DNA of 64,000 nt. Origin: Desulfonatronovibrio hydrogenovorans DSM 9292. GTDB taxonomy: Bacteria > Desulfobacterota > Desulfovibrionia > Desulfovibrionales > Desulfonatronovibrionaceae. The stretch lies in the NCBI RefSeq assembly GCF_000686525.1, contig NZ_JMKT01000015.1, positions 62,001-126,000 on the forward strand, in the 5' to 3' direction. A model generated the notes under the pieces. The model was not told where the DNA came from and did not search any database. It saw only the letters and a list, made by a program, of their open reading frames with translations. A program made the translations under genes and the position numbers. Positions 11,310 through 34,826 of this stretch are shown here, piece by piece (the first letter of the stretch is position 1; each line of letters opens with the position of its first letter).

Positions 11310-11329
11310 AATTCAAGTCATTACCATGC
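11296..11329. repeat. 11-bp perfect inverted repeat over the prsR promoter
   Basis: GCATGGTAATG (11296-11306) and CATTACCATGC (11319-11329) are exact complements separated by 12 bases. The left arm overlaps both promoter elements and the right arm covers the predicted transcription start. It looks like an operator more than an RNA hairpin, because most of the left arm would lie upstream of +1. Confidence 0.6.
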
Positions 11330-11412
11330 AACGGAAATTGCCTGTTCAAAGCAGGGAATTTCCCAATAACCCTTGGAGTCAGGCATTCTGGGCTGTTTTT
11401 TTGCTGATAATT

Positions 11413-12765
<1,353 letters not shown>

Positions 12766-12768
12766 TTC

Positions 12769-15089: not shown

Positions 15090-15159
15090 TTGCAGCAATA
15101 AAGATGGATTGCCAGCAGATGTTGTCGGTCTTCGCAGATAATCTGAATGGGAGGCGAAG

Positions 15160-16554: not shown

Positions 16555-16632
16555 GCCTTGTGCCTGGTTTGTGTTTTTCCCTTTCATCTACTTGAAGGCT
16601 TTTATCAATTAATCATTGTAAAGGAGGACTGT

Positions 16633-17211: not shown

Positions 17212-17280
17212 GCTGGATCATTTTGCCGGTTTTTTAGTAATATCTAAATAATTCCGGCCCTTGTGGAGATGATCAATGTC

Positions 17281-17329
17281 CAGGCCGAGGGTGTTTTGAG
17301 TATCGGCCTGTAAGGCTGTCAGGGACAGC
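17281..17329 (+). other. Two adjacent hairpins in the leader of the barrel gene
   Basis: CAGGCCGA/TCGGCCTG (17281-17310, 14-base loop) and GCTGTC-AGG-GACAGC (17315-17329) are perfect stems in the 170-base gap between the export and barrel genes. Neither is followed by a T run, so they look like leader or processing structures and not terminators. Confidence 0.45.
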
Positions 17330-17381
17330 TGGCGATTGATTTTGCTTCATGAAGGAACCTCTAATTCTGATGAGGTAAGTA

Positions 17382-18683: not shown

Positions 18684-18691
18684 GTATAGTT

Positions 18692-19366
18692 ATGACATCA
18701 AAAACGGATAAGCACCAATTTAACAGAACTCATATTCTGAAGGTGGCGGTGCTTTGTTTGGTTCTTGTTGGAGCGGCCGGCTTTGTGCACTCTTTTGATT
18801 CTGAAACTGAAACCGCTATAAAGGTTCCTCTGAAGTACTTTCCCTATGAGTTCGGCACATGGGAAGCCAGAAACAACATGGAACTTCTGGACAGTGTGGC
18901 TGCGGTACTGGGAGTGGATGATTATGCCTTCAGGGATTATCGTTCTCCATATGGTACAACCATAAACTTTTATGCCAGCTATTTTGCCGCCAACAACAGA
19001 AACAAGGGGTTTCATTCACCCCTTAACTGTATGCCAGGGGCAGGTTGGAATATTTCTTCAACTGACGAAGTGGACCTTGTGCTGCCTGACGGTTCAACTG
19101 TTCGGGTCAGAAAAATGCTTTTGAAACGTGGGTCACATTATCAGGTCAGCCTCTATTGGTATCAATGCCGCTCCAGAATTATTGCCTCTGAATACTGGGA
19201 AAGATTCTACAGGGTTTTGGATTCCATTCGTTACGGCAGGACCGACGGAGCTTTCATCCGGCTGATAGTTACGGGTTCCGATGAGGAAGGAGAAGCCCTG
19301 GACGAATTGAAAAGTTTTGCAGCCCTGGTGATTCCACAGCTTGAAGAGCATTTTCCTGGTCTTTGA
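18692..19366 (+). CDS. epsI: EpsI-family exosortase-associated protein
   Basis: A 224-residue protein with one N-terminal membrane helix (about 15-33) and a periplasmic EpsI domain (TIGR02914-like) carrying its signature HSPLNCMPGAGW (108-119). EpsI is found fused to or beside exosortases and EPS genes; its biochemical role is not known to me. It lies between the barrel and exosortase genes, 58 bases before the latter. Confidence 0.9.
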   Translation: MTSKTDKHQFNRTHILKVAVLCLVLVGAAGFVHSFDSETETAIKVPLKYFPYEFGTWEARNNMELLDSVAAVLGVDDYAFRDYRSPYGTTINFYASYFAANNRNKGFHSPLNCMPGAGWNISSTDEVDLVLPDGSTVRVRKMLLKRGSHYQVSLYWYQCRSRIIASEYWERFYRVLDSIRYGRTDGAFIRLIVTGSDEEGEALDELKSFAALVIPQLEEHFPGL

Positions 19367-19424
19367 TCTTTCCTGACAGCTGGTCCCTGATTGTCCTGCA
19401 AACAGATAACCTGGATATTTTTCC

Positions 19425-20288
19425 ATGAAAAACTTTGTGTGGCAGAATAGAACCATAATAGCTTACGCGATACCTGTAATTGTCTCTTTTTTTCTTCTTT
19501 ATTATCAGGTTTTCATCAAACTCGTCCAGGATTGGGAAGTAGATCCGAATTACTCCCATGGATATTTCATTCCCTTTCTGGCTGGATTCATGATCTGGAG
19601 TCGAAGAAAGGAACTATTTTCTACCCCTGCAGGTTCGTCTCCTTTTCTGGGAATCTTTTTTGTTTCCATGGGCCTGGCCCAGCTCATGCTGGCCTGGATT
19701 GGAAGTGAATACTTTCTTCAAGCTGCATCCATGATCCCTGTGCTCCTGGGCATCAGTCTGTTTTTCTGGGGCAGGGGGGTCACCTGGAAGCTGGCTGTGC
19801 CCATTTTATACCTGATCTTCATGATTCCATTGCCGGCAATTATCTGGGATCAGATCGCCTTTCCTCTTTCTCTGATGGCTTCCAAGATTTCTGCTGACTT
19901 CATTAACTTTTTGGGTATGCCCATCCTCAGGGAAGGGAATATCCTGTACCTGCCCAATGTGACCCTTCAGGTTGAAGAAGCCTGTTCAGGCCTTCGCTCC
20001 CTTACCACCATGTTTGCCCTGAGCGCTTTGGTTGCCTATCTGAGTCCCCTGGGTCGGATTTCCAAGACAGTGATATTTCTGGCAGCTGTACCCATAGCTA
20101 TTGCCGGTAATATCGTCAGGTTAATAGGAACGGCTATCCTGGCCCGGAAGTATGGCACTGTAGTGGCTGAAGGATTTATTCACGACTTTTCAGGCTGGCT
20201 GCTCTTTGTCTTTGGCCTGATTGCCCTGATGCTGCTTCAGGGAATGCTGATTAAATGGGACGGCCGGGATAGAAATGGGACTTCCTGA
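19425..20288 (+). CDS. Exosortase (XrtA-type by context)
   Basis: A 287-residue inner-membrane protein with about eight helices. The exosortase catalytic residues are present: C187 in EEACSGLRS, R232 in GNIVR and H253 in FIHDFSGW. It should cut PEP-CTERM signals and transfer the protein to an acceptor, in the manner of sortase. The two PEP-CTERM proteins at 2059-3850 are obvious local substrates, though the genome may hold more. EpsI is a separate gene here, whereas some XrtA proteins carry an EpsI domain at the C-terminus. Confidence 0.93.
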   Translation: MKNFVWQNRTIIAYAIPVIVSFFLLYYQVFIKLVQDWEVDPNYSHGYFIPFLAGFMIWSRRKELFSTPAGSSPFLGIFFVSMGLAQLMLAWIGSEYFLQAASMIPVLLGISLFFWGRGVTWKLAVPILYLIFMIPLPAIIWDQIAFPLSLMASKISADFINFLGMPILREGNILYLPNVTLQVEEACSGLRSLTTMFALSALVAYLSPLGRISKTVIFLAAVPIAIAGNIVRLIGTAILARKYGTVVAEGFIHDFSGWLLFVFGLIALMLLQGMLIKWDGRDRNGTS

Positions 20289-20385
20289 TCGTTCTGAGCT
20301 GCAGGGACCAATGCCCGGAAGACCTGATAATTGTAGTGGGCTGTCTTTATTTAAATGGGGTTTAGCGCGAGGATCAGATTAAAAA

Positions 20386-21258
20386 ATGAAGTTTTTTCTG
20401 ATAACCATAGATGTGGAAGACTGGTTTCAGGTCGAGAACCTGAGACCCTGGTTTCCCATGGAATCCTGGGCTTCTCAGGAAATCAGGGTTGAGTATGCCA
20501 CCCGAAATATCCTGGATCTGCTGGACCGGGTTTCAGCAGAAAACGGAATAAGGGTTAAGGCGACTTTTTTTACATTAGCCTGGATAGCCCAGCGAATGCC
20601 TCATCTGGTCAAAGAGATCAGTTCTGCTGGGCATGAGGTTGCTTCTCATGGCTTCAGCCATCAGTTGTGCCTGGAACAGGCGGAGAGTGAACTGCGCAGA
20701 GACCTGGAGGAAAGCAAAAAACTTCTGGAAGACATAATCGGTGATGATGTTTCGGGATATCGCGCCCCAAGTTTTTCCATATCAGAAAAGGTTCTGAATG
20801 TGATTAGGCAAGCCGGATATGCATATGACGCCAGCTACAATTCATTTGGTCTCAACGGTCGTTATGGAAAGCTGGATTCAACCAGGTATCCAAACAAGGG
20901 TATTGCCCTGGATCTGGGAGATGGTTTTTACGAGCTTCCCTTGACCAATCTCAAGGTTCCGGGCGGCTGTCTCCCCTGTGCTGGTGGCGGATATTTCCGT
21001 CTGTTTCCTGAAGCTGTTTTCAGGGCTGGAGTACGTAACATCCTGAAAAAGCAGGATGCGTATCATTTTTATCTTCATCCCTGGGAGACCGACCCGGATC
21101 AGCCAAGGCAAAACCAGGCATCAGCCTTGTCCAGGTTCAGGCATTATCATAACCTGAAAAAGACTCTGCCCAGGCTGGAAAATCTGATTTCTTCTTTTCG
21201 ACACTGCTCTTTTTGCACCTGCAGGGAGTACCTTAAAGCAGTCTCTTCCGATTGTTGA
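20386..21258 (+). CDS. XrtA-system polysaccharide deacetylase
   Basis: A 290-residue NodB-type carbohydrate esterase (TIGR03006-like). The metal-binding aspartates lie in TIDVEDWF (D9, D12) and the HxxxH pair is H88/H92 (SHGFSH). A PSFS motif and the late HPWETDP segment complete the active site. No signal peptide is seen, so it probably acts on lipid-linked or cytosolic glycan. It ends the first stretch of the cluster, just before a sigma-54-type promoter region. Confidence 0.92.
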   Translation: MKFFLITIDVEDWFQVENLRPWFPMESWASQEIRVEYATRNILDLLDRVSAENGIRVKATFFTLAWIAQRMPHLVKEISSAGHEVASHGFSHQLCLEQAESELRRDLEESKKLLEDIIGDDVSGYRAPSFSISEKVLNVIRQAGYAYDASYNSFGLNGRYGKLDSTRYPNKGIALDLGDGFYELPLTNLKVPGGCLPCAGGGYFRLFPEAVFRAGVRNILKKQDAYHFYLHPWETDPDQPRQNQASALSRFRHYHNLKKTLPRLENLISSFRHCSFCTCREYLKAVSSDC

Positions 21259-21282
21259 ATTCTGAACCACAGCTTTAATATA

Positions 21283-21336
21283 TGCATCTTTTTGCATTAT
21301 ATGAACTGCATTTGTTATTGGTTGCAAAATAATGCA
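21283..21336. promoter_or_regulatory. Paired TGCA-N6-TGCA sites upstream of the FemAB gene
   Basis: TGCA-N6-TGCA occurs at 21283-21296 and at 21323-21336, 40 bp apart, with a lone TGCA at 21307. The layout matches 11152-11208. The sites lie about 105-160 bp before the -12 element at 21440, as expected for enhancer sites. Confidence 0.6.
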
Positions 21337-21428
21337 GCTTGTTGTCTTTGCCCTGTTGATTCGTTCAATCATGATTTGTAGCTCCTGATTGATTATTGTT
21401 TAGGTTGGTGGTGATTAATGGCAGTGGC

Positions 21429-21444
21429 TGGCATGCAACTTGTA
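21429..21444 (+). promoter_or_regulatory. Sigma-54-type promoter of the FemAB/epimerase segment
   Basis: TGGCATG-CAAC-TTGTA resembles the -24/-12 consensus; the -12 element has GT in place of GC. The predicted start is near 21454, just before the TTG start at 21470. Confidence 0.55.
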
Positions 21445-21469
21445 AAAAGACCTGTAACATTTAATCAAT

Positions 21470-22555
21470 TTGAATTTGTTAAAGATTTACGAACAGCTGT
21501 CAGGACAAACTGCCTTGCTTAAATCAAAATTATATTCCCCTGAATACAGGTCTATGTGGGATGAATACGTTGACAATCATTTCCAGGGGAGCCTTTTTCA
21601 CACCCGGTTGTGGCAGGAAACCGTCAAGGCTGTTTTTGGCCACTCTGAACATTCAATAATGCTTCTGGATAATAAGGATGGAAGGCCTGTAGTAAAAGGA
21701 TTGATCCCATTATTTCGGATAAGAAGTTTTTTATTCGGGGATTACCTGGTTTCAGTCCCTTTTGCTGAACAGGGTGGTCCCCTTGCTGATCATGAATCTT
21801 TGAGGATCAGGCTGGTGGATTTGGCTGGTGAGAAACTCAAGAAAAATAACCTGGATTACCTGGAAATGAGGAATGTAGATCCATTGCCGGACCTGTTGTG
21901 TAAGGATCTGTATTATGGGTTTCAGAGGGAGATATTGTCTGATCTTGAAGATAATCTGATGGCCATTCCCAGGAAGTCCCGACGAATGGTCAGACAGGGC
22001 ATGAAAAACAACCTTCAGATTGCTGTGGGGAGCCACCTTTTGCCGGAATTCTATGCCATCATGGCCAGAAACTTCCATGGGCTGGGTACACCTATTTTCC
22101 CATATTCCTGGTTTAGTGGGCTTATGGAATCATTTCAGGAGAATTGTCTGCTGCTTCTTGTCAAGGATGAAAAGGGTAATCATATAGCAGGAGTGATGAG
22201 TTTTTTTTACAAAAACAGGGTGATGCCCTATTATGCTGGTTCTCTTGTAGAATACCGCAACCTTGCTCCCAACGATTTCATGTACTGGAAATTGATGGAA
22301 TATGCATGGGAAAAAGGGAGCAGGATTTTCGATTTTGGAAGAAGCAAAATAGGTACTGGCTCATTCAGGTTTAAGACCCACTGGGGTTTTGAACCCAGAA
22401 GCCTTGCCTATCAGTACGTCCTTCATAAAAAAGATGAGCTTCCTGATTTAAGCCCGAACAATCCAAAATACCAGAGTAAAATCAAGACCTGGCAAAGGAT
22501 GCCTCTGAGCTTGACCAAGATCATTGGTCCCAGGATCTCCAGGTATCTGTGCTGA
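21470..22555 (+). CDS. FemAB-family XrtA-associated acyl/aminoacyl transferase
   Basis: A 361-residue protein of the FemAB/GNAT-fold superfamily (TIGR03019-like), with two tandem GNAT-like halves. In the second half, NDFMYWKLMEYA and the FDFGRS-T-GSFRFK region are typical. FemAB proteins transfer aminoacyl groups from tRNA. This subfamily is tied to PEP-CTERM loci, and its acceptor and donor are unknown. The frame has no ATG near its beginning: a stop lies at 21455, so TTG at 21470 or 21476 is the probable start, with no clear ribosome site. Confidence 0.88.
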   Translation: MNLLKIYEQLSGQTALLKSKLYSPEYRSMWDEYVDNHFQGSLFHTRLWQETVKAVFGHSEHSIMLLDNKDGRPVVKGLIPLFRIRSFLFGDYLVSVPFAEQGGPLADHESLRIRLVDLAGEKLKKNNLDYLEMRNVDPLPDLLCKDLYYGFQREILSDLEDNLMAIPRKSRRMVRQGMKNNLQIAVGSHLLPEFYAIMARNFHGLGTPIFPYSWFSGLMESFQENCLLLLVKDEKGNHIAGVMSFFYKNRVMPYYAGSLVEYRNLAPNDFMYWKLMEYAWEKGSRIFDFGRSKIGTGSFRFKTHWGFEPRSLAYQYVLHKKDELPDLSPNNPKYQSKIKTWQRMPLSLTKIIGPRISRYLC

Positions 22556-22570
22556 GATTTCCAGAAGCTT

Positions 22571-22610
22571 CCTGACAGCTGCTGCATCATTGCTTGAGGT
22601 TGCTGTCAGG
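22571..22610 (+). other. Hairpin after the FemAB gene
   Basis: CCTGACAGC and GCTGTCAGG form a perfect 9-bp stem with a 22-base loop just after the FemAB stop. There is no T run, so it may be a processing or Rho-related end. Otherwise the 22556-22790 gap shows only AT-rich sequence. Confidence 0.45.
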
Positions 22611-22790
22611 GCATTTAAAGTTTAATAGGATAATGAAATATTTCAACCTGCTGTGATGCTTGGAAGATTTTTGGATGGAATTGGTCTGACTATTTTTTGT
22701 TTTTTTACATTTTTATCTTTGCTACCTGGCTTTTTCAAAGGGTTTGATTAACATGGATCTTTACAACACGCAGTTAATACAGGGCTGGAA

Positions 22791-23849
22791 ATGAATAACA
22801 ATTACGATCAAGCCATAAGATTGCTTCGCAACAATCCCAGGACCTGGCTTGTTACCGGTGTGGCTGGATTTATTGGTTCCAATCTGCTGGAGACCCTCCT
22901 GATGCTTGATCAGAAGGTGGTTGGCCTGGATAACTTTGCCACCGGTCATCAGCATAACCTGGACGATGTTCAGCATGCTGTTACTCCTGACCAGTGGGCT
23001 AGATTTAGATTTTTCCCAGGTGATGTCCGTGACCTGGAAACCTGCATGGATGTCAGTGCAGGTGTGGATTATGTTTTGCATCAGGCAGCCCTGGGTTCTG
23101 TTCCCCGCTCCATTGAAGACCCTGTTTACACCAATGAAAACAACATCAGTGGATTTCTGAATATGCTTGTGGCGGGCAGGGATAACGGGGTGAAGAGGTT
23201 TGTTTATGCCGCCTCAAGCTCAACCTACGGTGATCATCCAGGTCTGCCCAAGGTTGAAGAAGAGATTGGGAAACCATTATCTCCATACGCTGTAACCAAG
23301 TATGTCAACGAACTTTACGCTGAAGTCTTTGCCGGATGTTATGATTTTAAGACCATCGGCCTCAGGTACTTCAATATCTTCGGCAGACGTCAGGACCCTG
23401 AGGGAGCGTACGCAGCTGTCATTCCAAAGTGGTTTGCAGGTCTTATCAGCGGGGAGCGGATTCATATTAACGGTGATGGAGAAACCAGCCGTGACTTCTG
23501 TTACATTGATAATTGCGTACAGGCTAACATTCTGGCTGCAGTTACCACCAATCCCGATTCCCTGAACAAGGTGTTTAACGTAGCCTTTGGTCAAAGGACG
23601 ACTCTTAATGAACTCTTCAGCATGATCAATAAAATGGTAATGGAGTCTGGCTACCCTGTTCAGCATGTCATGCCGGATTATCGTGATTTCAGACCCGGTG
23701 ATGTGCGCCATTCCCTGGCCGACATTGGCAGGGCCAGAAGCCTTCTTGGGTATGAGCCGGCTTACTCGGTTGAGGAAGGTCTGAAAAAAACTGCAGACTG
23801 GTATTGTAGTTTTGCTGGAAGGTCATCAGAGGATCAGGCTTTGGCCTGA
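22791..23849 (+). CDS. UDP-N-acetylglucosamine/galactosamine 4-epimerase (WbpP/TviC-like)
   Basis: A 352-residue extended short-chain dehydrogenase. It has TGVAGFIGS (22-30) for NAD, ASSSTYG (141-147) and the YxxxK pair Y166/K170. Length and the N-terminal extension before the Rossmann motif fit the WbpP/TviC group that interconverts UDP-GlcNAc and UDP-GalNAc (or their uronates). It supplies a precursor for the polymer. The ATG at 22791 is preceded by CTGGAA, a modest ribosome site. Confidence 0.9.
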
Positions 23850-24131
23850 AATCATCAGCGCAGGAAGGATCCTGAATCTGTCTGGAAAGAGCTCATTTAT
23901 GGTGATCCCGGTGTGCATAATATGGAAAAGTAGAGACTGAAAGGCATCCTGGTGGCTGGATGTGGAGTGTCGGAGCGAAGACAGACTGCTAAGGCTTTTT
24001 TAAATTCCCTCCTTCTCAGGCACATTGACCACGGATTCTTTTACTCTTGAACTTCTTTTCAAGGTTGCAGACAGATGTGCAGGCATTCCGTCTGAGGTGG
24101 TTTTGTCTGATCAAACCAGGCTTGTTAACCG

Positions 24132-25829
24132 GTGAGATACTTAATCCAGGTGGACGCAATAAACAGAATGCAACCAGTACACAGTATGGACCCAGCCCAA
24201 TCAGAAGCGCCTTTGCAGAAAAGAAAGATCCTTTATCTATGTCATCGCATTCCATATCCTCCCAATAAGGGAGACAAGATCAGATCCTTCAATCAGATTA
24301 AGTATTTATCTGAACAAGGCCATGATGTTCATCTTGTATGTCTGGCAGATCAGCAGCGTGATGTCAGCCATCGAGAAAAGCTTCTAAAGTGGTGCAAGAG
24401 TGTTAACCTTGAATTCAGGTCGACTTTTAAGTCAAAACTCCTTGCTCTGCCCTGGTTTCTGAGTTCTCTTCCCCTGTCAGTCCCCTGTTTCTACAGTTCA
24501 GTGCTGCAGAAAAAAGTGGACTCAATTCTCCAGAACAAGGACATTGATGTAATCTTCTGTTTTTCATCGGTGACAGCAGAATACCTTGTCCTGAGCAGGT
24601 TCTCGGGGATTCAGGACAGGCTGCAGATCATTGATTATTGTGATTTGGATTCGGATAAGTGGCTGCAGTACAGTTCCAGGTCATCTTGGCCCATGTCCAG
24701 GATTTACGCCAGGGAGGCCAGACTGTTGCTGAAATATGAATGCAGCTTAAACAGGCTGTTTGATTATTCTGTTTTCATATCCGAGGCTGAAGCTGATCTT
24801 TTCAGGCCCTGGGCCGGACATCCGGAGAGGATCAGGATCATGCCCAACGGTGTTGATCATGATTTCTTCTCGCCGGTCATACCTGCAGAGCTTAACCAAC
24901 ACCCGGTTCTATTGTTTACTGGAGCCATGGATTATGAAGCCAATGTTGACGGAGTAGTCTGGTTCTGCCAATCCATTCTTCCTGAACTGACTTCCAGAAT
25001 TCCCGGTCTGATGTTTTACATAGTTGGAGGGAATCCTTCTCCTGCAGTACAGAGGCTGGCTGGGAAAAATGTCGTTGTCACTGGTTATGTGAACGACATC
25101 AGGACATATTACCAGATGGCGGATGTGTGCGTTGTACCCTTGCGTATGGCCAGAGGAGTGCAGAACAAGGTTCTTGAGGCCATGTCCATGGCCAGACCTG
25201 TAGTAACCACCTCAAAAGTACTCCAGGGCATAAAGGCTGAACCTGGCCGCGAATTACTGGTGGCTGATACTGAACAGGAATTCTGTCAGGGGATTATCAG
25301 CCTGCTCAGTGATCAAAAGCTGAGGTCAGATGTCTCTAAAAGGGGAAGAAGTTTTGTCCTGGAAAATTATGATTGGCGGGAAAACCTCAAGTCTCTGGAT
25401 GAAATGCTCAAACCAGGTTCCGTCCAGGAGAAAAATAGCATCCCATCCAGGTCCTGTCTCAATCCCCTGTTTTTTCCATGCTATATCCTGCTGATGTTTC
25501 TGACCATTCTGTGGCCCATGGAGGAAACTTCCCCCGGGGCAAGCATCACCTATCTGATTAAGCCCGGATTGCAGAATTTTTTGCATTTACCCGTGTTTGC
25601 AGGCTTTTCCTTGCTTTTTTTTGACTTTATTCAGAATTTTCAACTTTCTCCTGCCAAAAGAATGCTTCTCTTTCTAGGAGCCGGACTGGGCCTTTGTGTT
25701 CTGCTTGAATGGCTTCAGCTTTTTGTCCCGGGAAGGTATTTTTCTCTGACCGATGTGCTGACGAACATAGTCGGACTTTTTATCGGCCTGGCAACATACA
25801 GGTACTGGTGCTCTGGTTCATCACAGTGA
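24132..25829 (+). CDS. XrtA-system glycosyltransferase fused to a VanZ-like membrane domain
   Basis: A 565-residue protein. Residues about 32-430 are a GT-B glycosyltransferase (TIGR03087-like), recognisable by LCHRIPYPPNKGDKIRS at its start and a late EAMSMARPVV segment. Residues about 440-560 form four or five membrane helices with the VanZ-like pattern (EWLQLF, then PGRYFSLTDVLTNIVG). The fusion would tether the transferase to the membrane. VanZ-like domains occur near EPS genes but have no proven biochemical role. The frame opens with GTG at 24132. GTG 24150, ATG 24168 or ATG 24186 are equally possible, because the conserved fold begins only near 24220. The preceding 280-base gap has no recognisable element. 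Confidence 0.87.
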   Translation: MRYLIQVDAINRMQPVHSMDPAQSEAPLQKRKILYLCHRIPYPPNKGDKIRSFNQIKYLSEQGHDVHLVCLADQQRDVSHREKLLKWCKSVNLEFRSTFKSKLLALPWFLSSLPLSVPCFYSSVLQKKVDSILQNKDIDVIFCFSSVTAEYLVLSRFSGIQDRLQIIDYCDLDSDKWLQYSSRSSWPMSRIYAREARLLLKYECSLNRLFDYSVFISEAEADLFRPWAGHPERIRIMPNGVDHDFFSPVIPAELNQHPVLLFTGAMDYEANVDGVVWFCQSILPELTSRIPGLMFYIVGGNPSPAVQRLAGKNVVVTGYVNDIRTYYQMADVCVVPLRMARGVQNKVLEAMSMARPVVTTSKVLQGIKAEPGRELLVADTEQEFCQGIISLLSDQKLRSDVSKRGRSFVLENYDWRENLKSLDEMLKPGSVQEKNSIPSRSCLNPLFFPCYILLMFLTILWPMEETSPGASITYLIKPGLQNFLHLPVFAGFSLLFFDFIQNFQLSPAKRMLLFLGAGLGLCVLLEWLQLFVPGRYFSLTDVLTNIVGLFIGLATYRYWCSGSSQ

Positions 25830-25836
25830 AACTTGT

Positions 25837-25870
25837 TGCATGTTGTATGCAAAATTTTTCTATGTATGCA
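25837..25870. promoter_or_regulatory. TGCA-element cluster upstream of the TIGR04063-like gene
   Basis: TGCA at 25837, 25848 and 25867 in an AT-rich stretch, about 75-107 bp before the -12 element at 25943. Spacing within the pair is 7 and not 6, so it is a looser version of the sites at 11152 and 21283. Confidence 0.45.
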
Positions 25871-25931
25871 ACTTTTTTAACATAAATCAGGGTGTAATGC
25901 CTGCTGTTTCAGGTTTCAGGGCATTGTTGGA

Positions 25932-25947
25932 TGGTATATCAGTTGCA
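25932..25947 (+). promoter_or_regulatory. Sigma-54-type promoter of the TIGR04063-like glycosyltransferase
   Basis: TGGTATA-TCAG-TTGCA has a perfect -12 TTGCA and GG-N10-GC spacing. The predicted start is near 25959, about 70 bases before the ATG. Confidence 0.6.
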
Positions 25948-26027
25948 ATGCTAAGACCGCATGATCTACTCAGCTTTATTACTTGATTTTAGTTTGATCA
26001 AAAACCTCCAATGGATAGATTTTTGAA

Positions 26028-27284
26028 ATGAAGATACTCCACATCCTTGACCATAGTCTGCCTTTGCACAGCGGGTATACATTCCGCAGTCAGAATATTT
26101 TTCGATCCCAGAAAAATAGAGGCTGGGAACCTGTTGTCCTAACCAGTCCCAAGCACGAGCAAAGCTGGCAGGGACCGTATAAAGATAAAGAAGTGATCAA
26201 TGGATTCACATATTACAGGACAGGACCTGTGGAAAAGAAAGGCTTTCTGCCGGTTGTTCCTGAAGTCATGATGGTCAGAACCCTTAAAAAAGTTTTGCAG
26301 CGGGTTATTGAAATTGAACAACCAGATTTCATTCATGCCCATTCCCCCTTTATCAATGCAATGTCCGCCCTGGACGTGGGCAGGCAGCTTGGGATTCCTG
26401 TTGCTTATGAAATACGGGCATTTTGGGAGGATGCTGCGGTTGATCATGGCTCATATAAAGAAGGTTCGTGGAAATACAGACTGGTCAGGTTTATGGAAAC
26501 CAGGGTATGCAAGCGAGCAGGGCATGTATTTGTTTTGTGCAATGGTCTTAAGAAGGATCTTGTCCAGAGAGGTATTGACCCGTCCCGGATTACCCCTGTG
26601 TTTAATGGAATAGATCCTTTTGATTTCAAACCCGTGCCTCCTGATGGGGATTTTCGTGATAAATACGGCCTTAACGATAAGAGAATCCTTGGGTTTATTG
26701 GCTCTTTTTATCGCTATGAAGGCCTTGATCTGCTGATTAAATCTTTTGCTGAACTGTCCAGGAACAATCCTGACCTGGTCCTGCTTCTGGTGGGTGGAGG
26801 TGAAATGGAAGCAGAGCTCAGGCAGCTTGTTGCAAGCCTTGATGAGACATTTGCCGGGCATCATGGCCCACCCGGAACAGAACGACTCAGCAGTCGGGTT
26901 CTTTTCCCTGGACGCATTCCCCATGAACAGGTTCCAGGTGTTTATTCATTGATGGATATCCTGGTTTATCCCAGGTACAGGATGCGTCTGACCGATCTTG
27001 TAACCCCACTTAAACCGCTGGAGGCCATGGCCATGGGCAAAGCCCTGGTGGCCAGCGATGTTGGCGGACACAGGGAGCTGATCAGGGACCGGGAAACCGG
27101 GATTTTGTTTAAGGCCGGGGATGAGAATGATCTGACCAGGGCATTGGAAGTTCTTTTGAATGATGAGGATAAGCGCCAGAGCATCCAGGATCATGCTTCC
27201 GAATGGGTCAGGAACAATCATGCCTGGGAAAAAACCACGTCAGTGTATGATAAGGTATATTCTGATCTGTCCGTCAGGGAATAG
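26028..27284 (+). CDS. Exosortase-associated GT4 glycosyltransferase
   Basis: A 418-residue retaining GT-B glycosyltransferase of the exosortase-linked Daro_2409/TIGR04063 type, recognised by its opening ILDHSLPLHSGYTFRS. The C-terminal donor site includes GFIGSFYRYEGLDLL and the EAMAMGKALVASDVGGHRELI segment. It adds a sugar to the lipid-linked repeat unit in the cytosol. It is the first gene after the promoter region at 25837-25947 and is followed after three bases by the methyltransferase. Confidence 0.93.
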   Translation: MKILHILDHSLPLHSGYTFRSQNIFRSQKNRGWEPVVLTSPKHEQSWQGPYKDKEVINGFTYYRTGPVEKKGFLPVVPEVMMVRTLKKVLQRVIEIEQPDFIHAHSPFINAMSALDVGRQLGIPVAYEIRAFWEDAAVDHGSYKEGSWKYRLVRFMETRVCKRAGHVFVLCNGLKKDLVQRGIDPSRITPVFNGIDPFDFKPVPPDGDFRDKYGLNDKRILGFIGSFYRYEGLDLLIKSFAELSRNNPDLVLLLVGGGEMEAELRQLVASLDETFAGHHGPPGTERLSSRVLFPGRIPHEQVPGVYSLMDILVYPRYRMRLTDLVTPLKPLEAMAMGKALVASDVGGHRELIRDRETGILFKAGDENDLTRALEVLLNDEDKRQSIQDHASEWVRNNHAWEKTTSVYDKVYSDLSVRE

Positions 27285-27287
27285 CCA

Positions 27288-28031
27288 GTGAACAGTTATC
27301 AGCCAAACGGGTTTGAAAAGCGCTGGCAGAAGATATTTCAGGCTTTTGCCCAAAAACATGAACACGATGCCGGGATAGCAGGGTGGTCAGTCACTGGGTT
27401 GCGGGCCAGGCAGAATCATTTTGAGCATTACTTTTCAAGAGGTGGAAAAAGGTCCGGGAAATGGCTGGATGCGGGCTGTGGTGCAGGCAATTATTCGCGT
27501 CTGCTGGCTGAAAATGGACTCAGTGTGACTGGACTGGATTATTCTTGCCCCAGTCTGGCCAAAGCCAGGCTGAGGAGTCAGCAGGCTATCAACTGGATTG
27601 CCGGAGATGTCAAGTTGGTCCCTTTTGAAGACAGGGTCTTTAGCGGGGTGGTTTGTTTCGGGGTCAGCCAGGCTCTTTCTGGATCCGATCTTTTTTTAAA
27701 TGAGTTGACCAGGGTGGCTGTCAAAGACTCCGAGCTTTGGGTTGACGGTCTGAACAAATGGTGTGTGGTCCACTTTTTTTCCAGTCTGTGGCGCAGGATC
27801 AAAAGAAAACCAAGACACCTGCGCTATGAGTGTCCGTACAGCATGAGAAAAAAGCTTAAGCTGCTCGGCTGGAACCGGGTTGACATATTATGGCTGCCAA
27901 TTCTTCCAGCCCGGCTGCATCGGATTCAGAATGTTCTGGAAATACCGGTAGTGCGAAATTTTTGGCAGAAGGCCCCCCTGGTGGGTCTGATGAGCAGCCA
28001 CGGCTTTGTTTTACGGGCAAAGAAAAACTAA
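27288..28031 (+). CDS. Class I SAM-dependent methyltransferase
   Basis: A 247-residue methyltransferase with motif I WLDAGCGAGNYSRLL (about residues 62-76) and a following acidic residue in LDYS. The rest fits the UbiE/Methyltransf_11 fold. The substrate is unknown; a sugar of the polymer or the product of the E1-like enzyme encoded next are both possible. It starts with GTG three bases after the previous stop and is probably co-transcribed with it. Confidence 0.85.
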   Translation: MNSYQPNGFEKRWQKIFQAFAQKHEHDAGIAGWSVTGLRARQNHFEHYFSRGGKRSGKWLDAGCGAGNYSRLLAENGLSVTGLDYSCPSLAKARLRSQQAINWIAGDVKLVPFEDRVFSGVVCFGVSQALSGSDLFLNELTRVAVKDSELWVDGLNKWCVVHFFSSLWRRIKRKPRHLRYECPYSMRKKLKLLGWNRVDILWLPILPARLHRIQNVLEIPVVRNFWQKAPLVGLMSSHGFVLRAKKN

Positions 28032-28115
28032 GGGTCGGTTTTAAGTTTTTCTGGATCAGATTTTGATGGTTGGGCTGCAAGACGGCTGATAACATGAATC
28101 ATCAAGGAGGACAGG

Positions 28116-28958
28116 ATGGAGAACAACAGCTATGTCCAGGACATGCTGCAGAGGACCCTTTTGTTTTTCAGCCAGGAGGAAGTGGAAGCGGTCCAAAACA
28201 CTGTTTTTGCAGTTTCCGGTCTGGGAGGGGTTGGAGCCATTACTGTGGAGCTGCTGGCCCGGTGGGGAGTTAAAAGCTTTCGTCTTCTGGATATGGACAG
28301 GTATGATCCCTCAAACCTTAATCGCCAGCTTTTTGCCACCTCTCTGACCCTTGGAAAGCCCAAGGTGGAGGTGGCGGCCCAGCGTATCAGGGACATTAAC
28401 CCCAATGCTGATGTTGAAATGATCCTTGCGGAAAGAGTGGACAATGAAAATGTGGAGCGGTTTGCCAGGGGAGCCGGAATCCTGATTCAAAATGCGGATC
28501 ATCCATCCTGCAGGCTGTTTTATCTGGCCGGAAGGAAACATAAAATACCATTGGTCAATGGCCATGCCACCATCACCGGAGGCAGGGTGCAGACCTTTGA
28601 TTACCGTTGTTCAACCTGTGAAAGCCCCTTGGAAGATCGGTGGCAGAAATTCAAGTTTGGAAAAGATTCAAAGCCGCTGGATAGAATGAATAGCAATGAG
28701 ATTGCTGAATTCGACCGGCAGCATGTGCATCCAACTGCTCCATCATTGAATTTTGTCACCAATATGGTGGGCTGTCTTATTGTGGCTGAGGCTGTAAAAT
28801 TGCTCTCAGGAAAAGGAAAGTGCGTTCTTTACCCGAACTATCTGACTTTTGACACTTTTGACTACCGGATGAAGATCAGGAACTCTCGTTCTCCTTTTAA
28901 TCCGGACAATCTGAAAAGGTTATGGAGCGTGGGTCGCTCCAGGCTGTCTTTAAAGTAG
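28116..28958 (+). CDS. Stand-alone E1-like (ThiF/MoeB family) adenylyltransferase
   Basis: A 280-residue E1-superfamily enzyme: GLGGVG at 35-40, acidic LLDMDRYD at 57-64, NLNRQ at 67-71 and a lysine in GKPK. A C-x2-C (CSTC, near 163) could help bind zinc, though a second pair is not evident. The late region TNMVGCLIVAEAVKLL resembles the E1 dimer helix. It should activate a carboxylate as acyl-AMP. No ubiquitin-like partner gene is present, but a rhodanese-like gene follows, and E1-rhodanese pairs commonly serve sulfur transfer. AAGGAGG precedes the ATG, one of the best ribosome sites in the window. Confidence 0.9.
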   Translation: MENNSYVQDMLQRTLLFFSQEEVEAVQNTVFAVSGLGGVGAITVELLARWGVKSFRLLDMDRYDPSNLNRQLFATSLTLGKPKVEVAAQRIRDINPNADVEMILAERVDNENVERFARGAGILIQNADHPSCRLFYLAGRKHKIPLVNGHATITGGRVQTFDYRCSTCESPLEDRWQKFKFGKDSKPLDRMNSNEIAEFDRQHVHPTAPSLNFVTNMVGCLIVAEAVKLLSGKGKCVLYPNYLTFDTFDYRMKIRNSRSPFNPDNLKRLWSVGRSRLSLK

Positions 28959-29022
28959 ATGAATTCCGATCCCTCTAGTCTTAAATCTGAGACCAGGTTG
29001 GGTTACCGGGCAGGAGCTGATT

Positions 29023-29511
29023 ATGAAAATAAAATCGTTGTCAGTCATTTTTCTGGGCGCAGGATTTTTGCTCATGGCAGGTATGGCCGGTGCTCAGGAA
29101 AGGGGACAGATCCATCCCATCAATCAGCAGCTGGTTCAGGTTGGTTTGATGCCAGTGCCCAAGTATTATCCGGAAATACCCCGGATTACTTCTGAGCATG
29201 CTTACTCCCTTTACCTGGCTGGAAGAGCCCTTTTTGTCCTTATTTCTCATTCAGACCGCCATCTGATCCTGGGCGGGGTTCATTTGACTGAAAATCTGCC
29301 TCCCAGGATTGATCCCAACCGGCTTCCGTTTCAGCCAGGGCAGGTGCTGATCGTCTACTGCCCGTGAGGACCTCACGAGGGAAGCAGTGCCCGTGCGGCA
29401 CATCACTTTATCAGTAACGGCCTGCGAAGGCCGGTTTATGTGGTTATTGAGGGAGTGCATCTGATGGCCAAAGCCGGCTTTCCTTTTTATTTGGACGGGA
29501 TTTCCCGCTGA
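29023..29511 (+). CDS. Exported rhodanese-like protein, candidate selenoprotein (in-frame TGA)
   Basis: The frame from ATG 29023 (CAGGAGC upstream) encodes a signal peptide (ending AGAQ) and the first half of a rhodanese domain. It then meets TGA at 29365-29367, directly after Tyr-Cys-Pro. Reading through, the same frame continues with unmistakable rhodanese sequence (PHEGSSARAAHHF, then VYVVIEG and AKAGFPF) to a TGA at 29509. Related rhodaneses have a second Cys two residues after the catalytic Cys (YCxCPxEAxSA), which is where the TGA falls, so Sec at residue 115 is plausible. A hairpin at the right distance follows. If read as Sec, the product has 162 residues and is periplasmic. The alternatives are a nonsense mutation or a 114-residue truncated protein. 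It follows the E1-like gene by 64 bases. Confidence 0.65.
29387..29401 (+). promoter_or_regulatory. Putative bacterial SECIS hairpin
   Basis: GTGCC-CGTGC-GGCAC forms a 5-bp stem with a five-base loop whose second base is G, 26 bases after the in-frame TGA. Bacterial SECIS elements, as I recall, have a small loop with G in the first two positions, about 16-37 bases after UGA. A second, short fold (TGAG-GAC-CTCA at 29365-29375) could compete. Confidence 0.45.
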
Positions 29512-29518
29512 GTGGCAA

Positions 29519-31006
29519 ATGCTCCAGGAATTGAAAACTCTGACCAGGCATTCGGCAATTTACGGGACAGCTGAGATTCTTAAAAAAGGCCTGGGTTTTT
29601 TGATGATCCCGGTCTATACTCACTTTTTGCTTCCAGCAGATTATGGCCTGCTGGAGCTTCTGGAAATGACGGTTATCATAACCGGGATTATATTTGGTCT
29701 GCGCTTGGGCGGAACAATGATCCGTTTTTATCATCAATTCGATGATCCAGGGCAGAAAAGTGAGGTGGTTTCAACCACATTCATTTCGGTTTCCGTGATC
29801 AGCCTGCTTTTGCTTGTTTTCTTGCAGGTGTACAGTGTTCAGATATCTTCACTCATTTCAGGGACACCGGAGAATGCCAAGGCCTTCAGGCTGATGTTCT
29901 TAAGTCTTGTCATTCAGAACATCTACCTTGTCGGTGAAAACTACCTGCTGGCTAGAAAAAAATCAGCCATATATTCCAGTCTTTCCATCCTGACCCTGGC
30001 CATTTCCCTGACCCTCAATATTTTGTTCGTGGTGGGCTTCGGCTGGGGAGTTTACGGAATTCTTTACAGCATGCTCATAGCTAAGCTGGTTAATTTGATC
30101 ATAGTTGTTCCCCTGACCTTTAAAGACGTATCAATATCATTTTCATGGATAAAACTCAGAGACATGTTGTATTATGGACTGCCTCTGGTTCCAGCTTCAA
30201 TAGGTATGTTTCTGATGCATTTCTCGGATAGATTTTTTATCCGTCACTATGTCGACTTAAGTGAACTGGGCATATATGCCCTGGCATACAAATTCGGCAT
30301 GATTCTCTCAGTGCTGGTTGCCGGTCCAATCTTCAAGATATGGAATACCCAGCGTTTTGAGATAGCAAGACAGGAAAAGCCTGATTCAGTTTTCGGAAGA
30401 ATGTTCACTTATTTTCTGCTTGCAGTTACGTCCTTTGCTCTGATCCTCTGTGTCTTTATTGATGAAGCCATCCACATCATGGCTGCCCAGGCCTACCAAA
30501 GCGCTGCCAGTCTGGTCCCGATCCTGGTCCTGGCCTACCTGATGATCAGTATTTCCGGATTCTTCAACCTTGGTTGCATGATTACCGGGCGGACTAAAAT
30601 ACTGGCCGGGGTTCAGGTGGTGGTGACTGTGCTGAACATCTTCCTGAACATTCTGCTCATCAGCAGGTATGGAATCATGGGGGCCGCTGTTTCCACCTTG
30701 GCTACCTTTTCCGTCCTGGCTGTGCTGAATTATCATTATTCTCAAAAAGTATATTACATCAGCATGGAGCATGGGCGGGTTATAAAAGTGTTTTTTACCG
30801 GACTCTGCGTTTATGTTCTGTCTCAGCTAGTGGACAGTACCTTCTGGATTCAGTTGGGTTATAAGGGACTGGTATTGACTCTTTTTCCTCTCATTCTCTG
30901 GCTGACCGGTTTTTTCAGCTCTGATGAGAAGAAAAAGCTAAAGGGCCTGGTGAGAAACCTGAAATCAAAAGAAATCCACGCCAGGGCAGATGATGCCAGG
31001 CAGTGA
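29519..31006 (+). CDS. Wzx-type oligosaccharide flippase
   Basis: A 495-residue polytopic membrane protein of the MOP/PST family with about 12-14 helices, opening with LKTLTRHSAIYGTAEILKKGLGFLMIPVYTHFLLPADYG, in which the N-terminal pattern typical of Wzx flippases is clear. It moves the lipid-linked repeat unit across the inner membrane. It starts seven bases after the readthrough end of the rhodanese-like gene and overlaps the next deacetylase by 17 bases. Confidence 0.92.
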   Translation: MLQELKTLTRHSAIYGTAEILKKGLGFLMIPVYTHFLLPADYGLLELLEMTVIITGIIFGLRLGGTMIRFYHQFDDPGQKSEVVSTTFISVSVISLLLLVFLQVYSVQISSLISGTPENAKAFRLMFLSLVIQNIYLVGENYLLARKKSAIYSSLSILTLAISLTLNILFVVGFGWGVYGILYSMLIAKLVNLIIVVPLTFKDVSISFSWIKLRDMLYYGLPLVPASIGMFLMHFSDRFFIRHYVDLSELGIYALAYKFGMILSVLVAGPIFKIWNTQRFEIARQEKPDSVFGRMFTYFLLAVTSFALILCVFIDEAIHIMAAQAYQSAASLVPILVLAYLMISISGFFNLGCMITGRTKILAGVQVVVTVLNIFLNILLISRYGIMGAAVSTLATFSVLAVLNYHYSQKVYYISMEHGRVIKVFFTGLCVYVLSQLVDSTFWIQLGYKGLVLTLFPLILWLTGFFSSDEKKKLKGLVRNLKSKEIHARADDARQ

Positions 31007-31991
31007 TTCCAAGCGGAGAAAAAGTGCTTTGACCTGGAGACTGGAAATTTTGACCTTTCACCGTATACTCCCTAAAGGGGAAAAATACTTTATCCCACCC
31101 ATGTCCCTGGCTGTTGATACCTTTGCAGACCTTTTAAGGGCGCTGGCTTCCAGATATCAGGTGCTGCATCTAAGTGATGCTGTCCGAAAAATCAGAAAAA
31201 ATGAACTGAAAGGAAAGATTGTCTGTCTTACGTTTGATGATGGCTATCTGGACAATTTAGAGCATGCTGCTGATGTTCTTTTAAAGACCGGCCTGCCTGC
31301 AACTTTTTTTGTACCTGTTCATCATATTCAAACCCAGCAAGTTTATTGGTGGGATTATCTTGATTATCTAGCAAGAGAATCAGGCCAGGATTTTCTGGCC
31401 TGGACCCAAGATAATGACCCAGATTGGATAAACGATGTTTCTGGTTTAAATAAGGTGACCGGGGAGCCTTTGACCGGAAGTCCGGCCAGAGATCTGGTCA
31501 GAAGACTAAACTCCATATCCAGACAGAACAGAGAAGAATATCTGTCCAAGCTTGCCTTATTTTTCGGACCTTATCAGGGACCAAGGCTCCTTATGGACAT
31601 CAGCGAATTGAAAAGACTGATTGATTTGGGCTTTGAAATCGGATCCCATACTGTTTCTCATAACCCCCTGACAGACTTGACTCTGGGGCAGGCTGAAAGT
31701 GAAATCAGTCAATCCAGACAGGTCTTGGAGCAGATGTGCGAAGCAAGGATCCAGGCTTTTTGTTATCCCCGGGGCGCTTGGAATAATGAGCTTGCCGGGC
31801 TGGCTGAAAAGTCTGGTTACAGCTGTGCTGTAACCACTTGCTTCGGCTCAAACCGTCCAGGCCAGAACATGTATTCTTTGAAGAGAAGAAACATTTCTGA
31901 TTACCATGGGATAAGATCCTTGTTCCCGGTGCTTATGAGTCTGATGGAGTTGTCGGGCAGGATGGATTTTTTATTGTCTTCCAGGAGATAA
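30990..31991 (+). CDS. NodB-type polysaccharide deacetylase
   Basis: A 333-residue carbohydrate esterase 4 protein with LTFHRI near the start, TFDDGYLDN as metal/catalytic motif 1 and SHTVSHNPL as the HxxxH motif 2. FCYPRG is motif 3. An insert of about 60 residues between motifs 1 and 2 is common in EPS-linked members. No signal peptide, so cytosolic or membrane-peripheral action is expected. The frame offers two adjacent ATG codons at 30990 and 30993. Confidence 0.9.
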   Translation: MMPGSDSKRRKSALTWRLEILTFHRILPKGEKYFIPPMSLAVDTFADLLRALASRYQVLHLSDAVRKIRKNELKGKIVCLTFDDGYLDNLEHAADVLLKTGLPATFFVPVHHIQTQQVYWWDYLDYLARESGQDFLAWTQDNDPDWINDVSGLNKVTGEPLTGSPARDLVRRLNSISRQNREEYLSKLALFFGPYQGPRLLMDISELKRLIDLGFEIGSHTVSHNPLTDLTLGQAESEISQSRQVLEQMCEARIQAFCYPRGAWNNELAGLAEKSGYSCAVTTCFGSNRPGQNMYSLKRRNISDYHGIRSLFPVLMSLMELSGRMDFLLSSRR

Positions 31992-31994
31992 TGC

Positions 31995-33308
31995 ATGCTT
32001 CCTCTGAGGACCATGGCCTATTTTGGGCTGTTCAGCCTGGCTGTTCTTGGTGCAATACTTTATCATCCCATAGTGGGAATCTACGCATATCTGGTCACAT
32101 ATAATGTCAATCCTCTTGGCCAGTGGTGGGGCGGATACCTGCCAGACTTTGCCACCAGATATGCCTTTATTCTGGCGGTGGCCACATCCATCGGGGTATT
32201 TCTGCACTGGGGCAAATTGAGGATGCAGACCGTGCTGGAAAGACAGGAAGTGCTGCTTATTCTTTTTCTCGGGGTGATCTGGCTGTCTGTACTTCTGGGC
32301 CAGGGATGGGGGGTCCACTATAATGTGATCAAAATGACCAAGGTCGTGTTCATTATTCTTCTGGCTTCCAGGATAATCACCACGTTCTCCTTCTATGAAG
32401 GGATGCTCTGGGTGCTGATAATTTCCGGACTTTACCTGGGTTTTGAGATGTATTCCGGTTCAGGGGTCAGAATCGGAGGCAGGTTTCATGCAGGAGTAGG
32501 CGGATCTGATTTTGGCGAGGGAAATTTTTTGGCAGCCCATTTTGCCTATGTGATTCCCCTGATCGGGGCTCTTTTTCTAAAGGGAACCTGGAAGTCTAGA
32601 GGGATCTGCCTTGTTTCGGCTGTATTTATCCTCAACGCCATTGTCATCACCAGGTCCAGGGGGGCTTTTCTGGCCCTTGGAGTTGGAGCACTGGCAGCGA
32701 TTTTCCTGACCATCTGGCTGAGAGGGCATCGCAAGAAGATAGCTGCTCTTATGGTGCTGGGGGTTGTGGGAGCGGTGTATCTGACTGATCCTGGTTTCTG
32801 GAGCAGGATGGAGACTCTGCAGGTCAGCGATGAAATCACTGAATCCAGGGATGCTTCGGCCGTGGGCAGGCTGGTTGCCTGGAGAGGGGCCTGGGAAATG
32901 GCTCAGGACTATCCTTTAGGCGTGGGTGTGAACGAGTCGTTCAACTTTCTTGGGATATATGTGCCGGAAATGGAGAACAGGGACATCCACAACACCTATC
33001 TTAGATGTCTGGCAGAGCTGGGATTTCATGGCCTTTTGATGCTGGTGCTGTTGATCGGTAATGCATTCTGGATGCTTTACAGGATAGACGGATCAGCCAA
33101 ACATCTGTCTCAGGACCGTGGAATGGATTACTACCTGCACTCCTTTGCCCTTAAGATCGCCATTCTGGTTTATCTTACAGCGGCCATATTCATTTCATCT
33201 GTATTTATTGAAGAATTCTACTGGCTGCTCATGATGCCGGTTTTTCTAAAGCGCGCTTTGGATAATGATCTGTATGATGATGCTAGGCCTGGAGGCAATG
33301 AGGCTTGA
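31995..33308 (+). CDS. Exosortase-associated O-glycosylation ligase / O-antigen polymerase-like protein
   Basis: A 437-residue membrane protein with about ten helices and a large late periplasmic loop (about residues 285-340), the Wzy/WaaL topology. The opening (PIVGIYAYLVTYNVNPL) fits the exosortase A-associated ligase family TIGR03097. It would polymerise repeat units or attach glycan to a protein such as a sorted PEP-CTERM product; the two cannot be told apart from sequence. It starts three bases after the deacetylase stop. Confidence 0.88.
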   Translation: MLPLRTMAYFGLFSLAVLGAILYHPIVGIYAYLVTYNVNPLGQWWGGYLPDFATRYAFILAVATSIGVFLHWGKLRMQTVLERQEVLLILFLGVIWLSVLLGQGWGVHYNVIKMTKVVFIILLASRIITTFSFYEGMLWVLIISGLYLGFEMYSGSGVRIGGRFHAGVGGSDFGEGNFLAAHFAYVIPLIGALFLKGTWKSRGICLVSAVFILNAIVITRSRGAFLALGVGALAAIFLTIWLRGHRKKIAALMVLGVVGAVYLTDPGFWSRMETLQVSDEITESRDASAVGRLVAWRGAWEMAQDYPLGVGVNESFNFLGIYVPEMENRDIHNTYLRCLAELGFHGLLMLVLLIGNAFWMLYRIDGSAKHLSQDRGMDYYLHSFALKIAILVYLTAAIFISSVFIEEFYWLLMMPVFLKRALDNDLYDDARPGGNEA

Positions 33309-33702
33309 AAGCCTTGAGGCTGGGATGTTGGGCGGATGCTCTGAGTTACAGGTGGAAAAGCCAGGATGCCCGGAGGATTTGGGATGACCTGGACTGCAAG
33401 GTTAGGGCTCGTTTTCCTGTAGAAGAAAAAGACGGACTGACATTTCAGTTTCGTCGTGCACCATTGTCCATACAACCAGTATAGTGGTGGAGGGGTGCTC
33501 GCAAAATGAAGACAAAGAGCTTGCCCACTTTGTCAATATTTCTTTTGGTTCCCAGGCTGAAACAAAATACTTGCTTCACCCTGCCAGTTCAATGAAACAC
33601 CAGGATGAATCCATTTCTGCAGACATTGAAAGGCCAGTACGAAGCTTCTGGCCTAAAACTCTGGAGTTTTTATCAGCCAGTAAACAAGGGCGCACAGCAT
33701 AA
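33305..33702 (+). pseudogene. Decayed four-helix-bundle (S23/Avd-like) protein gene
   Basis: From TTG 33305, preceded by GGAGG, one frame reads WKSQDARRIW, then RFPVEEKDGL and RRAPLSIQPV before a TAG at 33482. The next frame picks up with VVEGCSQNEDKELAHF and ISFGSQAETKYLLH. Joined, these match the four-helix-bundle family (SWQDAR, FPxEE-GL-QxRRAxxSI, AEGxxRNxxKEF, SLGSxAE). So the gene carries one frameshift near 33465-33482. Intact members occur inside rRNA intervening sequences and as free genes of unknown role. Nothing else is seen in the 390-base interval between the ligase and the next glycosyltransferase. Confidence 0.8.
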
Positions 33703-34826
33703 TGAATAAAAATTTCATTCCGGATTCCCACCTATCCAGGCTTCCAGTCAAAGTCTGCCTTATTTCTCCCTTCCCTCCGCCTTACGGCGGTATGGCAGTT
33801 CAGGCGGAAAAGCTGGCTTCTCTGCTCAGTGCTGCTGGCTGTCAGGTCTCAAGAGTCAGGACAAATCCGTCTGATTATCCGGGTTCAGGCATTATTTCCC
33901 GTATTCCTGTCCTTCGAACAATGATTAACATGTCTGTTTTTTTGAATAATCTGCGTAAGAAGCTAAGAGAGACGGAGCTGGTCTACTTTTTTACTGGTTT
34001 CTTTAACTTTTTTTTCTGGGTGACCTATCCGGCCCTGATTCTGATTCTATTTTCCGGCAAGCCGGTAATACTCAGCGCCAGGGGTGGCGATGCCCGCAGG
34101 TTCTTCCTCAAATATAAAAAGAGGGTTGTTCCGGTCCTGAGAAAAGTTGACCTGATAACCACCCCTTCAGGCTTTCTCCAGGATGCTTTTAAAGATGTTC
34201 TGGAAATTGAAACCGTGGTCATTCCCAATATTGCGGATCTGAAGCAGTTCGAGTTCAAGGAGAGAAGCGTGTTCAGACCAAAGCTCCTGGTCACCAGGAG
34301 TCTTGAACCCATTTATGATGTTCAAGCAGTCATCAGAGCCTTTCAAATTGTGGCCCGGAGCCATCCGGATGCACTTCTCGGCATTGTGGGCAAAGGCAGT
34401 CAGCGAGGAAAGCTTGAAGAGCTGGTTGCTGATCTTGGTCTTGAATCCAAAGTCATTTTTTACGGCCAGGTCAGCCATGATCAGATTCAAAAGCTTTATC
34501 AGGATTACGACATTTATATCAATGCCTCCCAGGTGGACAACCTCCCAGGGGTAATTCTTGAAGCCTTTGCCTGTGGCTTGCCGGTTGTTTCTACCAATGC
34601 CGGAGGCATCCCCTACATGGTGGAGCATGGAAAAACAGGGCTGCTGTGTGATGTGGGAGATTACCGGGTCCTGGCTGAAAACGTTCTGCGCATTCTGCAT
34701 GACCCTGATCTGGGCAAGTCTCTGGCATTGGCCGGAAGAGCTGAAACCTCCAGGTACTCCTGGGAACGTATCCAGCCAATGATGAGAAATATGTTTGCTG
34801 AATGTGGAAAGAATATGAAGAATTGA
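33702..34826 (+). CDS. GT4 family glycosyltransferase
   Basis: A 374-residue GT-B glycosyltransferase. The N-terminal part opens SPFPPPYGGMAVQAEKL, typical of GT4 acceptor domains. The C-terminal donor domain has IVGKGSQRGKLEEL and the EAFACGLPVVSTNAGGIPYMV segment with its nucleotide-sugar glutamate. It is probably cytosolic and adds one residue of the repeat unit. Its ATG overlaps the stop of the decayed reading frame before it. Confidence 0.92.
   Translation: MNKNFIPDSHLSRLPVKVCLISPFPPPYGGMAVQAEKLASLLSAAGCQVSRVRTNPSDYPGSGIISRIPVLRTMINMSVFLNNLRKKLRETELVYFFTGFFNFFFWVTYPALILILFSGKPVILSARGGDARRFFLKYKKRVVPVLRKVDLITTPSGFLQDAFKDVLEIETVVIPNIADLKQFEFKERSVFRPKLLVTRSLEPIYDVQAVIRAFQIVARSHPDALLGIVGKGSQRGKLEELVADLGLESKVIFYGQVSHDQIQKLYQDYDIYINASQVDNLPGVILEAFACGLPVVSTNAGGIPYMVEHGKTGLLCDVGDYRVLAENVLRILHDPDLGKSLALAGRAETSRYSWERIQPMMRNMFAECGKNMKN

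Follow-up and report, generated by a model that had tools for sequence, protein, structure and literature searches.

Does the in-frame TGA in the active-site loop of an exported-looking rhodanese of Desulfonatronovibrio hydrogenovorans DSM 9292 end the protein or encode selenocysteine, and what could such a protein do beside an E1-like enzyme? We addressed these questions in a stretch of 64,000 nucleotides (the window, i.e. the whole stretch of DNA that was analysed) and in related genomes. The first-pass annotation had proposed a candidate selenoprotein, a proposal that gains support from the sel genes of the genome, from the exchange of Cys and TGA among homologues and from a hairpin that is conserved in position and covaries. 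From the sequence data we estimate at roughly 0.9 the probability that the gene product is an exported selenoprotein with a single rhodanese-like domain, whose active-site loop has the form C-x-U, and we hold with the same confidence the selenoprotein claim including its SECIS and family placement, the redox role being left out of this estimate. For the codon itself, at 29365, the sequence evidence makes a selenocysteine reading nearly certain.

A reading frame across the UGA

The elements of the gene are as follows.

29012..29016, + strand: AGGAG, ribosome-binding-like site (sequence)
29023..29511, + strand: seleno-rhodanese gene, 162 amino acids, predicted selenocysteine at codon 115, stop TGA at 29509-29511 (homologues and fold)
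29023..29094, + strand: probable Sec-type signal peptide (MKIKSLSVIFLGAGFLLMAGMAGA), read from the sequence; AlphaFold confidence is low there
29359..29361, + strand: TGC, Cys113, the rhodanese catalytic-loop cysteine; TGA (Sec) in the relatives G330, G462 and G863
29365..29367, + strand: in-frame TGA, taken to encode selenocysteine 115 of the C-x-U motif (reading frame, homologues, hairpin)

The ATG at 29023 is preceded, six bases 5', by the AGGAG, and the signal-peptide-like N-terminal stretch ends, as judged by eye from the sequence, at about ...MAGMAGA-QE. Around codon 115 the loop reads Y-C-P-TGA-G-P-H-E-G-S-S-A-R-A-A. It had been noted that the TGA directly follows Y-C-P and that a conserved frame runs on beyond it; this is borne out, as 47 sense codons separate this TGA from the stop. 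Compared with the five nearest relatives, the residues after the TGA are conserved as much as, or more than, those before it (identity with G330: 25/47 after and 41/90 before). Translation Table 11 reads the TGA at 29365-29367 as a stop, and standard gene calling would truncate the protein at 114 amino acids. Taken at face value this would mean a truncated rhodanese, a pseudogene or a sequencing error. Such a stop, however, would delete the rhodanese active-site loop together with the last helices and strands, and the conservation past the TGA also argues against it.

At the level of transcription, promoter matches are at chance level, terminator-like matches are moderately above it (11 versus 6.3 expected) and do not mark a clear operon boundary, and Rfam at the gathering score yields no match at the seleno-rhodanese locus.

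Homologues and selenium machinery

Within the phylum, a homologue search over 395 genomes returned matches in 20 other genomes, most of them with at least one in-frame TGA, and the NCBIfam model NF041203 identified 35 of 247 genomes above its cut-off, again mostly with TGA. In total, dozens of independent homologous genes, in many other families, have TGA at the same codon, and on these grounds sequencing error and pseudogene were rejected. The TGA falls in a single alignment column, in the forms C-A-U, C-S-U, C-D-U, C-E-U, C-P-U and U-x-U. Homologues with a sense codon in that column have Cys, less often Ser or Ala; the Cys/TGA exchange that had been suggested as a check was indeed found, with TGC or TGT in L120, L122, L126 and L027. 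The earlier statement that relatives have a second cysteine at this position is thus right for some homologues, but most close relatives have Sec there. A search of 150 related genomes, which covered the 17 others of its genus and family, returned only the window's own gene, and a scan of genome contigs gave one locus, on an uncultured Desulfosoma contig, apparently that of L019.

Two further patterns were seen among NF041203-type homologues. L121, L123, L124 and L125 have Ser or Ala instead of Sec, and six classic members (L043, L049, L050, L058, L063 and L064) have TGA at both positions (U-T-U, U-A-U, U-S-U), so that double-Sec rhodaneses occur outside the E1-linked branch described below as well.

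The source genome (2.94 Mb in 16 contigs, about 99% complete) was examined for the decoding machinery, a check also proposed with the initial reading, and all four components were present: selA, selB, tRNA-Sec (selC) and selD each score above curated cut-offs, selB and selA lie about 2.6 kb apart on the same contig, and the tRNA-Sec anticodon is UCA. The selD gene of this genome itself carries an in-frame TGA. UCCAGG-GGA-CCUGGA comes after it, its loop at +21 to +23 (by eye), and this hairpin serves as a positive control of bSECIS geometry in the source genome.

A conserved hairpin downstream of the UGA

29387..29401, + strand: bSECIS hairpin GUGCC-CGUGC-GGCAC (conservation among homologues, covariation)

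Published bSECIS rules call for a loop of 3-9 nt, a stem of 4-16 bp, a G within the first two loop bases and a spacing of 16-37 nt (PMC13188914). We coded these rules by hand for our search, and the hairpin at 29387-29401 conforms to them: the stem arms are 29387-29391 and 29397-29401, and the loop CGUGC (29392-29396) begins 25 nt after the UGA. The loop G sits 26 nt after it, so that the distance first given for this G was correct.

In most homologues GUGCC-loop-GGCAC, or a variant of it, recurs, and its loop begins 22-25 nt downstream of the UGA; one extra codon accounts for the 3-nt shift of the window gene and its nearest relatives. All five pairs form in 53 of 59 TGA homologues, as against 1 of 14 sense-codon homologues (one row of L025, in a spurious frame, is left out of this count). 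Shifting one arm by 1-4 nt leaves none of the 59 TGA homologues with all five pairs. The five pairs are retained in 57-60 of 60 sequences, and the second loop base is G in nearly all. The fourth pair joins two wobble positions; here we counted T-A 37 times, C-G 17, T-G 4 and C-A once (Fisher 3.5e-10, uncorrected for relatedness). The bSECIS-like element thus agrees with the rules and is both conserved in position and covarying.

Taken by itself, the window hairpin is not significant, which is the second point in favour of a true stop: shuffled versions of the 61-nt stretch fold just as well (z 0.69) and a synonymous-codon shuffle gives p = 0.10. The case for the hairpin accordingly rests on conservation. 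The nearest relative in the hairpin scan, L018, has a weak hairpin only, and in L021, which has the TGA, the bSECIS-rule search found none. Nevertheless, the hairpin tracks the TGA among homologues, and with the shared codon and the conserved downstream residues this leaves termination at codon 115 an extremely improbable reading. We favour decoding as selenocysteine: SelB with Sec-tRNA(UCA) would read the UGA at 29365, directed by the hairpin at 29387-29401, as we infer from the conserved anatomy and the complete set of sel genes.

The NF041203-type homologue L121, which has a TCA codon, retains all five hairpin pairs, a combination whose sequence suggests a recent loss of the UGA.

Fold and family placement

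The Pfam scan of the window protein gave no match, and its only NCBIfam match is NF041203 at 20.1 bits versus a cut-off of 115, so that it misses the equivalog threshold. The rhodanese assignment therefore rests on the fold and on the NF041203 relatives, and a gene with so little model support is easily overlooked. An AlphaFold2 model built with 51 homologues has a rhodanese fold (pLDDT 85.5; pTM 0.77; residues from about 31 onwards are confident), with the active-site Cys after the central strand of the predicted model. In a Foldseek search against the PDB, rhodanese-like domains were the best matches (E 1e-5 to 1e-3); YgaP and GlpE ranked below them, and the rhodanese domains of Uba4 and MOCS3 were among the weaker matches. 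The window protein shares with the single-domain rhodaneses GlpE, YgaP and BH2092 (PDB 1gmx, 2mrm, 3nhv) the fold and the position of the active-site Cys; those proteins, unlike it, have neither selenocysteine nor an exported CxU loop.

CxU rhodanese selenoproteins were already known from bioinformatics (PMC9312934, PMC13188914). NF041203 (rhodanese_LYCAU) corresponds to the "rhodanese-like form 3, CxU" of one review (PMC13188914) and the "COG0607 form 2, CxU" of the other (PMC9312934). With this family the window protein has in common a small, mostly exported-looking rhodanese domain with C-x-U at the same place, evident in the alignment of its loop, and the same hairpin in the same register. 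Its score far below the cut-off marks it as a divergent branch. Unlike the family, the window protein and its nearest relatives have an N-terminal HP-N...GL-P-PKYYPE-PRI segment. The branch also differs in its linkage with an E1-like gene inside polysaccharide clusters, and three of its six linked members are U-P-U. In the tree, the six linked rows and the long-branch L027 are split from the other 59 rows (96/89), the classic CxU rows lying on the opposite side of this supported branch. CxU rhodanese selenoproteins are in this way extended to a branch that general models miss, lacking a Pfam match and falling far under the NCBIfam cut-off.

A linked E1-like gene in polysaccharide clusters

11326..34826, + strand: XrtA (exosortase A)-type polysaccharide cluster containing the E1-like/rhodanese pair (family models; not every gene typed)
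27288..28031, + strand: SAM-dependent methyltransferase, encoded in one gene run with the E1-like and seleno-rhodanese genes
28116..28958, + strand: E1-like ThiF-family protein, directly 5' of the seleno-rhodanese; orthologues occur together with the seleno-rhodanese in five other genomes
29519..31006, + strand: polysaccharide flippase (Polysacc_synt), the next gene 3' of the seleno-rhodanese

The E1-like protein matches Pfam ThiF (6e-40). It resembles TcdA, MoeB and ThiF enzymes in its N-terminal adenylation region, which matches TcdA at 6e-21 and MoeB at 6e-17, but differs from them in forming a separate orthologous group, and it passes no NCBIfam equivalog cut-off. In a search of 395 plus 293 genomes (E 1e-55), orthologues were found in seven genomes, six of which, the window included, have a seleno-rhodanese in the same cluster; the seventh, G308, is represented by a 4.5-kb contig on which there is no rhodanese. 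In five of the six the two genes are direct neighbours or have one gene or a short gap between them (in G479 a methyltransferase, according to the ORF reading); in G863 the distance is about 8 kb. The linked loops are C-P-U in the window and in G479, C-G-U in G454 and U-P-U in G330, G462 and G863, so that in half of the linked members Sec replaces the catalytic Cys too, giving a double-Sec loop. Across the seven E1 genomes, with the short G308 contig among them, no Cys-Cys rhodanese was found beside the E1-like gene. An exported-looking rhodanese next to an E1-like gene is thus real and recurs. The first-pass annotation had called a seleno-rhodanese in this position unusual; a CxU rhodanese selenoprotein as such has precedent in NF041203 and the reviews.

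All six linked members lie in polysaccharide-type clusters; family models typed the window cluster alone, and the other five were recognised by reading ORFs. In the window the cluster genes include a chain-length determinant, a tyrosine kinase, an exosortase, EpsI, a deacetylase, FemAB, stp1/stp3 glycosyltransferases and an O-ligase, and flippase-like proteins are also encoded downstream in G330, G454 and G479. Gene linkage ties the seleno-rhodanese to an XrtA-type polysaccharide system. What is new here, at the level of sequence, is a divergent CxU branch linked to one E1-like (ThiF) orthologous group in polysaccharide clusters. In the literature searched we did not find this E1-linked branch, nor a link between selenium use and envelope polysaccharide systems, and the text of the 2026 review does not contain the term "UxU" (PMC13188914).

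A second E1-like protein is encoded in the window at 43-2004 (+ strand), about 26 kb from the one beside the seleno-rhodanese. Its ThiF domain is fused to an Acg/nitroreductase-like FMN domain, and its best NCBIfam match, PRK14851, is below that model's cut-off.

Possible roles

As in Uba4 and MOCS3, in which an E1 is fused to a rhodanese, E1-like and rhodanese domains are both present at this locus, and one might imagine a selenoprotein that is a real sulfurtransferase passing sulfur on, perhaps in a pathway shared with the E1-like protein. The gene linkage in six genomes and the weaker Foldseek matches to both rhodanese domains fit this possibility. However, the proteins here are separate, the rhodanese looks exported (by eye, from sequence), no signal peptide is evident in the E1-like protein, and the two genes are distant in G863. 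The E1-like proteins also lack the conserved pair of CxxC zinc motifs in the three members compared. Of the ORFs of at least 60 amino acids listed at 24-35 kb, none terminates in Gly-Gly, which leaves no evident sulfur carrier nearby, though a carrier could sit elsewhere in the genome. We consider such sulfur relay quite improbable. Without an evident signal peptide the E1-like protein should be cytoplasmic, which makes direct cooperation with the exported rhodanese unlikely; within the cytoplasm it probably uses a carboxylate substrate of its own that belongs to the same pathway.

Alternatively, the protein could be a redox helper of the Dsb-like or peroxide-related kind, free of sulfane-sulfur chemistry, that serves envelope proteins exported with the XrtA system. 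The CxU motif looks like a thiol-redox motif, most selenoproteins that are still uncharacterised are believed to be redox enzymes (PMC9312934), and the envelope polysaccharide context fits as well. Against it, the predicted fold is that of a rhodanese, not thioredoxin-like, and we regard it as rather unlikely.

The role that we propose, at slightly less than even odds, is that of a periplasmic persulfide/thiol reductase-like enzyme, and not a classic thiosulfate:cyanide sulfurtransferase; this redox role is drawn from chemistry and analogy. In the periplasm, Cys113 would accept sulfane sulfur (from polysulfide, thiosulfate or a persulfide) or form a mixed disulfide, and Sec115, which lies two residues further along the loop, would attack the Cys113 adduct, freeing sulfide or a reduced thiol. 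The selenenylsulfide left behind would be reduced by an external (envelope) reductant, restoring the Cys-Sec pair, and the U-P-U relatives could form a diselenide instead. These relatives make the chemistry of the loop directly testable across C-P-U, U-P-U and C-P-C forms.

Somewhat more tentatively, the E1-like enzyme and the exported seleno-rhodanese (C-P-U or U-P-U) may constitute an undescribed functional unit of XrtA-type clusters. If so, selenium would have a part in making, modifying or exporting a surface glycan. The repeated E1-like linkage connects selenium use with envelope polysaccharide systems, and this suggests some role of selenium chemistry in a surface-polysaccharide cluster.

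The protein encoded at 48200-48955 (+ strand) has 'ILTTGSSGSSVLAG' near its start and, as judged by eye, resembles sulfotransferase-like proteins whose genes neighbour that of the seleno-rhodanese, in G330 (L068, 8915-9667) and in the G354 cluster (L071, 4748-5494). Sulfation of the glycan is a possibility. Close by the XrtA cluster, Rfam identifies a c-di-GMP-I-GGC riboswitch at 3898-3996 (- strand), upstream of a gene for an exported-looking protein at 3080-3850 (- strand).
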